Shown piece after piece: positions 60,011-64,000 of a stretch of 64,000 nucleotides of DNA. The stretch is taken from NCBI GenBank assembly GCA_002711995.1, contig PASN01000014.1:372001-436000 (forward strand), given 5' to 3'. Positions within the stretch are counted from its first letter, which is position 1. Each line of letters starts with the position of its first letter. The notes beneath the pieces were generated by a model that saw only the letters and a list, made by a program, of their open reading frames with translations, had not been told where the DNA came from and ran no database searches. The position numbers and the translations under genes are program-made. This DNA is from Halobacteriovoraceae bacterium (lineage in GTDB: Bacteria; Bdellovibrionota; Bacteriovoracia; Bacteriovoracales; Bacteriovoracaceae).

Positions 60011-60415
60011 ATGAAAAAATTAATTATCTCTCTATTTATTGCAAGTTCTATTGGTTCTAGTTTTGCTAACGATATCGGAAGATATGCAGGACCTACTACC
60101 GCGGCATCGCCAATTGTTATTACAACTTTTAATCCAGTGGCAGGTGTCATTTCAGCATCTTCCATAGCGTTCTCTATATTTTACGCCATGGGCGCAGTTC
60201 ACTACGAAGGGCTTAACAGCGACGCAATTGAAGTTCTTGCTGGTTCAATTGAGCTAGAAGACTCAGCTGCTTTATCAATGTTCAAAGAAGATATTCTTTC
60301 AAACAAAGTAGCAGTTGAATCAGAACTTCAAGCAAACGACATTGACCTCGCTGTTGAAGAATTAACTGACGAAGAGATTGCTCAACTAGCAATTGCATCA
60401 AGTGTTCATCAGTAA
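60011..60415 (+). CDS. small secreted protein (ANDIDL family, member 1)
   Basis: 134-residue exported protein, first of three tandem paralogues. It has a signal peptide MKKLIISLFIASSIGSSFA and a hydrophobic middle (SPIVITTFNPVAGVISASSI) that may be a membrane helix. The conserved acidic C-terminal half has YEGLNSDAIEVLAGSIELED, QANDIDLAVEELTDEEIAQL. No cysteines or catalytic residues are evident. The ribosome binding site is weak (GGGGAACACC). Function unknown. Confidence 0.72.
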   Translation: MKKLIISLFIASSIGSSFANDIGRYAGPTTAASPIVITTFNPVAGVISASSIAFSIFYAMGAVHYEGLNSDAIEVLAGSIELEDSAALSMFKEDILSNKVAVESELQANDIDLAVEELTDEEIAQLAIASSVHQ

Positions 60416-60433
60416 AAATAAAGGATTCAAAAA

Positions 60434-60850
60434 ATGAAAAAACTAATTACAACTTTTCTCCTAACTTGTTCTATCACTTCTAGCTTTGCCGTTAATTTTG
60501 ACGACGCAAAGGCCATTGGCTCGATGGTGTCCACTACGGCTTCCCCGGTAATCACTACTGTTAACCCAATTGCTGGGATACTTGTATACACCACCGGTCA
60601 TTATTTCTTCGCAGAAATGTTTGAAAATGCTCCTAGATATGAAGGCCTAGACAATGACGCTATTGAGGTTCTTGCCGGTTCAATTGGAGTTGAAGACTCT
60701 CTTTCTATGACAATGTTTAGAGAAGATATTCTTGAAAACAAAGAAGCAATTGAAGCTGAGTTTCAAGCAAACGACATTGATCTATCAGTTGAAGAATTAA
60801 CCGACGAAGAAATCGCTCAGCTAGCACTTTCCTCAACTGTTCAAGAATAA
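60434..60850 (+). CDS. small secreted protein (ANDIDL family, member 2)
   Basis: 138-residue paralogue 18 bases after member 1. The signal peptide is MKKLITTFLLTCSITSSFA. The hydrophobic part is SPVITTVNPIAGILVYTTGH, and the C-terminal half keeps YEGLDNDAIEVLAGSIGVED and QANDIDLSVEELTDEEIAQL. The N-terminal mature part (DDAKAIGSMVSTT) differs most. AAAGGA precedes the ATG. It lies in a three-gene operon without internal terminators. Confidence 0.72.
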   Translation: MKKLITTFLLTCSITSSFAVNFDDAKAIGSMVSTTASPVITTVNPIAGILVYTTGHYFFAEMFENAPRYEGLDNDAIEVLAGSIGVEDSLSMTMFREDILENKEAIEAEFQANDIDLSVEELTDEEIAQLALSSTVQE

Positions 60851-60870
60851 TAAAGAAAGGTTTAATCAGA

Positions 60871-61272
60871 ATGAAAAAACTGTTTATCTCATTGCTTGTA
60901 ACGTGCACTATCTCTTCGAGTCTTGCAGGAGATTTTAGGGAGTATGCAGTTACATCTGGTGCGGTATCGCCGATTGTCATTACAACTTTTCATCCAGTAG
61001 CAGGTGTCGTCTCTGCGTACTCTGTGTTGTATACAGCAATATTTGCTATACAGTCCTATAATTATGAGGGCCTTAGCAACGATTCGATTGAAGTTCTTGC
61101 AGGTTCGATTGAGCTGGAAGACTCAGCTGCTTTAACAATGTTAAAAGAAGACATTCTCGAAAACAAAGTAGCAATAGAAGCTGAACTTCAGGCAAACGAC
61201 ATTGACCTAACAGTAGAAGAGTTAACTGACGAAGAAATCGCTCAGTTGGCACTCGCTTCAAGTATTCAATAA
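60871..61272 (+). CDS. small secreted protein (ANDIDL family, member 3)
   Basis: 133-residue third paralogue, 20 bases after member 2. The signal peptide is MKKLFISLLVTCTISSSLA. It is closest to member 1 (SPIVITTFHPVAGVVSAYSV; SIELEDSAALTMLKEDILEN) and ends QANDIDLTVEELTDEEIAQL. AAAGG precedes the ATG and a terminator follows. The near-identical ends of all three products show that the C-terminal half is the conserved functional part. Confidence 0.72.
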   Translation: MKKLFISLLVTCTISSSLAGDFREYAVTSGAVSPIVITTFHPVAGVVSAYSVLYTAIFAIQSYNYEGLSNDSIEVLAGSIELEDSAALTMLKEDILENKVAIEAELQANDIDLTVEELTDEEIAQLALASSIQ

Positions 61273-62872: not shown

Positions 62873-63793
62873 TCAGTATTCAATATAGGTTTGAGTGACC
62901 TTGGCATCTTTATGATTCAAGTAGTTTCTAACCATTAAAATGTCTTTGCTTTCAACATACATATTGGTTGCACATGCCTTTCTAAAGCTGTGGGGAGTTA
63001 AGTCGGAAGAAAGGCCAGCTCTCATAAGCATTCGTTTGATAAAGGCATACATTGCACGTGTGCTGACCTGCGCACCTGTCTTATTAGTGAATAAGTACTC
63101 GCTCTCAACGCTTGCCATACTTTTGTGCCTCTCCAAAAGATCAAAGATGGTTTCAAATTCTCGAATTTTTAGATAATGCCGCTCACCACCTTTTCGTATA
63201 AAGCTCAAAGACTTGGTCCGTTGAGAAAAATCGCTATACCTCAAACGGCATAACTCCTCGAGCCTTAGACCTCCAAAATAGAGCAGATACGCCACAAGTC
63301 TGTCTTTGACCTTATTTAGGTTTTTATCCAAGGAGTCCCAGTCCCGGTGATTTAAGAGCTTTGTATGCTCAATATCGCTGTCCTTCACCTTAATTGTGTG
63401 GATTTTGCTCTTTACAGGATTTCTTCCAAACGCTTTTGAGTTGTCCTCGTGAGATTGGATTAAATAGTCGTAGAAATTCTTAATACTCGAGAGGTGTCTT
63501 TTTTGGCTGTTCACACCCAAATTTAATGGATTTGGCACACTTTTGACCCGTCTGTACCACAGGAGTTTTCGCCAACCTTTTCTGGGCCTAGGGGAGCTAC
63601 CGCTCAGAAAGTCTTTATATGTCTCGATTGTCTTAGCGTTTGCACGGTTTAAATGCGAGCCATAGAAGTGTTCGTAAAAGTGAATGTATCTTTCTAAGTC
63701 ACTTCGATAGTTCTTAATTGTGTGTCCAGAGCGGTTTAGCTTCTCACAATTTCTTAGAAAACTATCCAGCCATTTCCTGTGTTTCTTGAACAA
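62873..63793 (-). CDS. tyrosine recombinase (Xer/phage integrase family)
   Basis: 306-residue site-specific recombinase. An N-terminal SAM-like core-binding domain (about 1-130, with TIKNYRSDLERYIHFYEHFY) precedes the catalytic domain. Catalytic residues are visible: Arg in LYFGGLRLEELCRL, a Lys in SFIRKGGERHYLKI, His-x-x-Arg in TPHSFRKACATNMY, His in YLNHKDAKVTQTYIEY, with the nucleophilic Tyr in the last few residues. The N-terminal domain has an insert rich in Arg/Trp (PRPRKGWRKLLWYRR) not usual in XerC/XerD. It starts at TTG behind AAAGGG. A Xer-like core site lies 70 bases upstream of its start. Confidence 0.92.
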   Translation of the reverse strand: MFKKHRKWLDSFLRNCEKLNRSGHTIKNYRSDLERYIHFYEHFYGSHLNRANAKTIETYKDFLSGSSPRPRKGWRKLLWYRRVKSVPNPLNLGVNSQKRHLSSIKNFYDYLIQSHEDNSKAFGRNPVKSKIHTIKVKDSDIEHTKLLNHRDWDSLDKNLNKVKDRLVAYLLYFGGLRLEELCRLRYSDFSQRTKSLSFIRKGGERHYLKIREFETIFDLLERHKSMASVESEYLFTNKTGAQVSTRAMYAFIKRMLMRAGLSSDLTPHSFRKACATNMYVESKDILMVRNYLNHKDAKVTQTYIEY

Positions 63794-63862
63794 GGCATAC
63801 CCTTTGCTTTTATTTGCAATTCAATCAATTTCGATACTTTTTGTTTAAAAAATACCCATTTT

Positions 63863-63890
63863 TATTCGTATAATTTATATTATACGTAAC
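63863..63890. other. Xer/dif-like recombination site
   Basis: An 11-6-11 site: left arm TATTCGTATAA, spacer TTTATA and right arm TTATACGTAAC. The arms are inverted copies at 8 of 11 positions, with CGTATAA/TTATACG perfect. It agrees with the E. coli dif core at 18 of 28 positions, including ATAA-T-TATATTAT. Its place beside a tyrosine recombinase gene supports a role as that enzyme's target. It could instead be a promoter palindrome. Confidence 0.5.
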
Positions 63891-64000
63891 AAATATGCAA
63901 TAAACACCTAAAAATACGTAAAATAGCTTTTACTTCGTTTTACTTTCTGTTTTTAGTGAAAAGAGTTAATATACATGTATAGGCAGCGCATCGTTAGATG
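63891..64000. other. AT-rich end region with half-site repeats
   Basis: Contains further half-site-like elements: TACGTAAAA (63915-63923), GTAAAA/TTTTAC as an inverted repeat (63918-63933), and CGTTTTAC shortly after. They may be accessory binding sites for the recombinase. An ATG at 63975 could begin a gene running off the window, but too little is visible to call it. Confidence 0.35.

Follow-up and report, generated by a model that had tools for sequence, protein, structure and literature searches.

A tyrosine recombinase gene and an adjacent dif-like site near the chromosome terminus in Bacteriovoracaceae

The recombinase gene and the site upstream of it

The window analyzed here is a stretch of 64,000 nucleotides of contig PASN01000014.1 (contig C14 of genome G000) from a Halobacteriovoraceae bacterium. 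It contains the gene of a tyrosine recombinase, W, and upstream of it a palindromic site, A (Table 1). W matches the Pfam families PF00589 (9.5e-26) and PF02899 (1.3e-8), its AF2 model has a pLDDT of 89 with Xer/integrase folds as the best PDB matches, and its catalytic residues are invariant over 28 orthologues. Judged from the R-K-HxxR-H-Y residues and the predicted fold, W is a catalytically complete tyrosine recombinase. It scored below the cut-offs of the XerC (TIGR02224, 105.5 vs. 335 bits), XerD (TIGR02225, 95.7 vs. 330 bits), XerS (NF003462, 58.8 vs. 267 bits) and archaeal XerA (NF040815, 118.5 vs. 220 bits) models. The basic insert described in the initial annotation is real (residues 64-92 approximately) and proved to be a length-variable, lower-confidence linker across the W family. 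The same annotation called the recombinase an orphan, which is only partly right, as G000 has seven tyrosine-recombinase loci.

Table 1. Features of the W-A locus (positions in the window)
Feature	Position	Strand	Basis
W recombinase, 306 aa, TTG start; R177, K201, H268/R271, H294, Y303 present	62873-63793	-	Pfam, orthologue alignment, AF2
AAAGGG, plausible ribosome binding site, 6 bp before the W TTG start	63800-63805	-	Sequence; kept in L014
Site A, dif-like 11-6-11, gene sense GTTACGTATAA-TATAAA-TTATACGAATA	63863-63890	-	Sequence and conservation
Site A, gene-proximal arm TTATACGAATA	63863-63873	-	TTAT(A) and G invariant or nearly so in logo
Site A, 6-bp spacer TATAAA (gene sense)	63874-63879	-	Commonest spacer in logo
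Site A, gene-distal arm GTTACGTATAA	63880-63890	-	C and TATAA invariant in logo
Imperfect palindrome with CGTAAAA-type repeats, doubtful significance	63912-63939	.	Genus-level conservation only

The dif-like site that had been proposed upstream of the recombinase start is present. The site has two inverted 11-bp arms and a 6-bp spacer, arranged as in dif (plus strand TATTCGTATAA-TTTATA-TTATACGTAAC), and 69 bp lie between its end and the TTG start of W. The arms match as dyads at 8 of 11 positions, and the inner CGTATAA/TTATACG is perfect. A search for the 28-base site, as suggested in the initial annotation, returned one exact match among the 23 contigs (3.70 Mb) of G000, located 7.5 kb short of the C14 end, and site A was also the only match in this genome to the perfect inner core CGNATAA-N6-TTATNCG. 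Site A thus resembles a dif site in being a 28-bp, intergenic, AT-rich inverted repeat in single copy. A search of Rfam returned no match. The CGTAAAA-type half-sites, taken at first for accessory sites, are real sequence and are retained in L014, from the sole congeneric genome with a W gene; they are unrecognisable at the W loci of other genera and were set aside as weak, with conservation at genus level only.

Two further features of this genome were recorded. The window carries three tandem paralogous small secreted-type proteins of 133-138 aa with a C-terminal motif in common (60011-61272), and a similar protein is found near a ribD-like gene on contig C22 (L008). Directly upstream of that ribD-like gene lies an XerC/D-like protein (L008:1096-2067) whose first catalytic Arg and HxxR His are replaced, and which we take to be an apparently catalytically dead Xer paralogue.

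Conservation and inheritance of the W-A pair

We scanned 46 named W loci, 519 kb in total, for A-type sites. These loci are mostly from the same genomes as the first 30 examined, so the counts from the two sets are not independent. Of the 46, at 36-82% protein identity, 36 have an A-type site (consensus NNTNCNTATAA-TATAAA-TTATANGNANN) whose distance upstream of W is 43-152 bp, and two more sites are further upstream. An order-1 Markov model predicts about 3 sites of this class per 519 kb and about 0.001 per 150 bp upstream of a gene; matches elsewhere in the loci were at this chance level. Conservation beside homologous recombinases, on which the initial annotation had made its reading depend, was therefore found. 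The logo of 35 sites gave CNTATAA-TATAAA-TTATANG, with C-N-TATAA and TTAT(A)-N-G invariant or nearly so; the 11-bp dyads are perfect in 9 of the 35, the spacer length is fixed at 6 bp, and TATAAA is the usual spacer. The DNA upstream of W otherwise shows no recognisable likeness across genera, and the palindrome recurs at the same place and in the same orientation. The core motif showed no excess over a reversed-pattern control in the 26 family genomes that lack W. Beyond W, a second and more degenerate dif-like site was seen in two congeneric genomes (G004 C1:1686164, L097; G050 C1:647471, L118), where W thus has a site on either side, the two differing in spacer, as in a pdif module.

Since site A contains TATAAT/TATAAA, overlaps a TATAAT box and usually lies close upstream of W, it might be an operator or promoter at which W represses its own gene without recombining, or at which another regulator binds. 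This is unlikely, because A is separated from W by 2.3 kb in G047 and 8 kb in G055 and lies on a different contig in G010, G020 and G026. Its persistence when displaced indicates a site in its own right and not just a promoter. The geometry and the inner ATAA/TTAT match dif, and the spacer length is fixed, which also argues against this reading. A purely promoter role was dropped on the displaced copies and on a sigma-70 scan that did not rise above shuffles. Site A could nevertheless double as the promoter or operator of W.

In a sample of 59 Bacteriovoracaceae genomes, 33 have a W orthologue, at 37-82% identity, and the named relatives among them belong to Bacteriovoracaceae, Halobacteriovorax and Bacteriovorax. 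The remaining 26, some of which are incomplete, yielded no W, which thus appears dispensable. Other families of the phylum gave no orthologues at comparable scores. This patchy distribution would suit the integration module, or the remaining scar, of a mobile element residing close to the terminus, as would the second dif-like site beyond W in G004. So would the identities between G000 and G004, which are higher for W (0.51) than for DnaA (0.46) even though W is the faster-evolving of the two in the close pair; this suggests some transfer. Against a mobile element stand the single copy of A in G000 without a flanking direct repeat, the acyltransferase-like gene conserved downstream of W in 29 of the 46 named loci, and the failure to find phage or conjugation genes conserved among the neighbours of W. 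The conserved neighbour marks W as a chromosomal resident, and we regard the mobile-element reading as very improbable. The boundary of an integrated element, one of the two possibilities raised in the initial annotation, was rejected as no second copy of A exists in G000; nor do site copies flank accessory DNA there, as they do in IMEX/pdif elements. Distances of W and of P/Q, the other Xer-like recombinases of the family, were uncorrelated in 13 genomes (Mantel r 0.13, p 0.26), whereas DnaA and W distances correlate at 0.75 in six genomes only, so that W may have been inherited vertically or horizontally. W evolves fast, and occasional transfer may have occurred.

The main dif and the position of site A near the terminus

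Canonical XerC and XerD are present in other families of the phylum. A count of their homologues, which the initial annotation had suggested for this genome, found no XerC/XerD equivalogs in the Bacteriovoracaceae (no match above about 190 bits vs. the 330-bit XerD cut-off); nearly every genome has instead one other Xer-like recombinase of type P or type Q, and G000 has type P. In the recombinase tree P and Q group together (86/99), and W forms its own clade (98/96) apart from them and from the canonical XerC/D of other families; one long-branch row, Can_L200, leaves the deep placement unsure, and XerH is absent from this tree.

Each type comes with a symmetric site at the terminus. P genomes have YGCACGATAA-GAAANA-TTATCGTGCR, seen in G022 as GCACGATAA-GAAACA-TTATCGTGC and subsequently as a single copy in most P genomes; no copy was found up to 40 kb from the P gene, the site being located near the terminus instead. 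Q genomes have an ACCCC-type dif, ACCCCNNATAA-N6-TTATNNGGGGT, which is a perfect palindrome in G004 (ACCCCATATAA-TTACCA-TTATATGGGGT). Many genomes of the family have the Q class with 0-2 mismatches, among them G013, G023, G035 and G057, which lack W. From this co-occurrence we infer that P and Q act at P-dif and Q-dif. The P site of G000, ATGCACGATAA-GAAACA-TTATCGCACAT (C19:401499-401526, L322), 4.1 kb from the end of contig C19, is the probable main dif of this genome. The arms of the main dif change between P and Q backgrounds, whereas those of A do not; site A is therefore assigned to W and not to P or Q. Separately, G054 carries the dif-like site TCCCCTCATAAGAGTCCTTATAGGGGGT twice in one orientation, at C10:37433 and, some 70 kb away, at C10:107434, an arrangement as expected for a dif-exploiting integrated element, and extra dif-like copies occur in G017, G035 and G046.

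In 12 genomes a single contig holds both site A and dif. The two are 5.3-32.9 kb apart in every case, and in 11 of the 12 the transcription of W leads away from dif. G004 is a complete chromosome of 3,435,933 bp with dnaA at 577, A at 1,687,272 and the Q dif 28 kb away at 1,715,533. Its local GC-skew maximum is at 1.731 Mb. Within G004 C1:1587001-1787000, GGGNGAGT/GGGNAGAG octamers show a strong strand polarity directed at the terminus and change strand close to the Q dif, with the switch at about 1.71-1.73 Mb; the switch bins were kept out of the motif choice. GGGNGAGT-like octamers are candidate FtsK-orienting (KOPS-like) motifs for the Bacteriovoracaceae. In G000 the link between A and dif spans a contig gap. 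GC skew is positive up to or close to the ends of C14 and C19 that bear A and P-dif, so these two contigs are expected to join head to head at the terminus. The end of C14, beside the terminus, has an ORF (L105:6029-7063) that is presumably an IS66-like transposase gene and may explain the assembly break. The nearness of W-A to dif could in part reflect general synteny of the region.

These positions bear on whether A is the main dif of the lineage, with W as the only dimer-resolving recombinase (a true XerH/difH-like system) and P/Q doing something else. We favored this at first, because A is conserved and W lies at 49% of the G004 chromosome. The single copy of A beside W near the terminus agrees with it, and in G022 the skew maximum lies closer to A (2 kb) than to P-dif (8 kb). 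In G004 and G028, however, the maximum is closer to the Q dif than to A, the polar octamers of G004 switch at the Q dif, and in G044, which is without W, the skew flips at P-dif. Moreover, 26 of the 59 family genomes lack W, yet P/Q and their dif sites are conserved whether W is present or not. The idea was dropped once the second palindrome, 28 kb off, was seen to lie near the skew and octamer switch and to be conserved without W. The role of a universal, family-wide site at the GC-skew switch is thus filled by another site, to which A lies close but only in genomes with W; A is probably not the main dif, and W as the sole resolvase is a quite improbable reading.

A putative second Xer module and its relation to known systems

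We consider it fairly probable, from sequence comparisons, that W and A make up an autonomous Xer-type module with a single recombinase, distinct from the main dif/Xer system that the chromosome also carries. The private single-recombinase system proposed in the initial annotation thus stands in part: the pair has the XerH/difH or XerS/difSL layout and the site is conserved near the terminus, but W is not the sole or main means of dimer resolution, because these genomes have a different conserved dif and another Xer. We lean slightly toward a broader picture in which the Bacteriovoracaceae have two independent single-recombinase Xer systems near the terminus, the family-wide P/Q, with a dif sequence that switched between clades, and W/A, 5-33 kb away and of nearly fixed polarity.

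Two W protomers would bind each A, one per arm, and two A sites would synapse; as A is in single copy, the partners would be sister chromosomes. Y303 would cleave at the spacer edges, and two strand exchanges would resolve or re-link the sisters near the terminus. A catalytically complete recombinase and a site with symmetric arms and a 6-bp spacer, present once per chromosome, point by analogy with XerH/difH, XerS/difSL and XerL/dif (PMC5357621, PMC9765430) to sister-chromosome crossing-over by W alone. The E. coli dif activity zone extends about 10 kb per side, with an FtsK capture zone of about 400 kb (PMC2680272). FtsK moving toward dif would by this analogy reach A, because A is so close to it, and the exchange would probably take place late in division, perhaps under FtsK, as for XerH/difH and XerS/difSL. 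The likeliest role, and the least certain step, would be auxiliary resolution or unlinking of sister termini after multi-copy filamentous growth. In the Bdellovibrio-type life cycle division follows such growth.

To our knowledge, dimer resolution in a chromosome relies on one Xer system (XerCD, XerS, XerH, XerA or XerL). A second conserved recombinase-site pair beside dif would raise the questions of why one is insufficient, how the exchanges avoid cancelling, and whether the second is needed for predatory filamentous growth. If P/Q and W/A both cross over between sisters, the cell must coordinate them, because two exchanges would rebuild the dimer. For the Bacteriovoracaceae, the analysis further yields predictions of dif sites, including the change of dif sequence at clade level, and of a single recombinase. 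Our literature search, which covered few subscription journals, returned nothing linking this family to a Xer, tyrosine-recombinase or dimer-resolution system.

Among known systems, XerCD/dif, as in Bdellovibrio bacteriovorus (TCTTCTGATAAGTTATATTATGTAACGG; PMC2731167), shares with A the 28-bp 11-6-11 layout and the inner ATAA/TTAT-type core, but it uses two recombinases and asymmetric arms, and the Bacteriovoracaceae are without XerC/XerD equivalogs. XerS/difSL of streptococci and lactococci (PMC5357621) likewise joins gene and site in one module; difSL, however, measures 31 bp around an 11-bp centre, against 28 bp and 6 bp for A, and W falls below the XerS cut-off. XerH/difH of Campylobacter and Helicobacter (PMC2731167, PMC5241119, PMC5357621) is, like W/A, a single recombinase with a near-symmetric site, usually beside the gene and near the terminus, and the site adjoins the gene in 36 of 46 W loci. 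XerH is the sole chromosomal Xer and has a TTGAAAA-type site, whereas W coexists with another Xer (type P in G000) and its dif, and the arms of A differ from the difH sequences of PMC2731167. By profile, W scores higher against XerD and archaeal XerA than against XerH. XerL/dif of Legionellales (PMC9765430) has, like W/A, a single recombinase outside the known Xer families and symmetric arms; XerL, compared with W by layout, is the main resolution system, unlike W, and it is the P/Q systems that resemble the XerL/dif layout.
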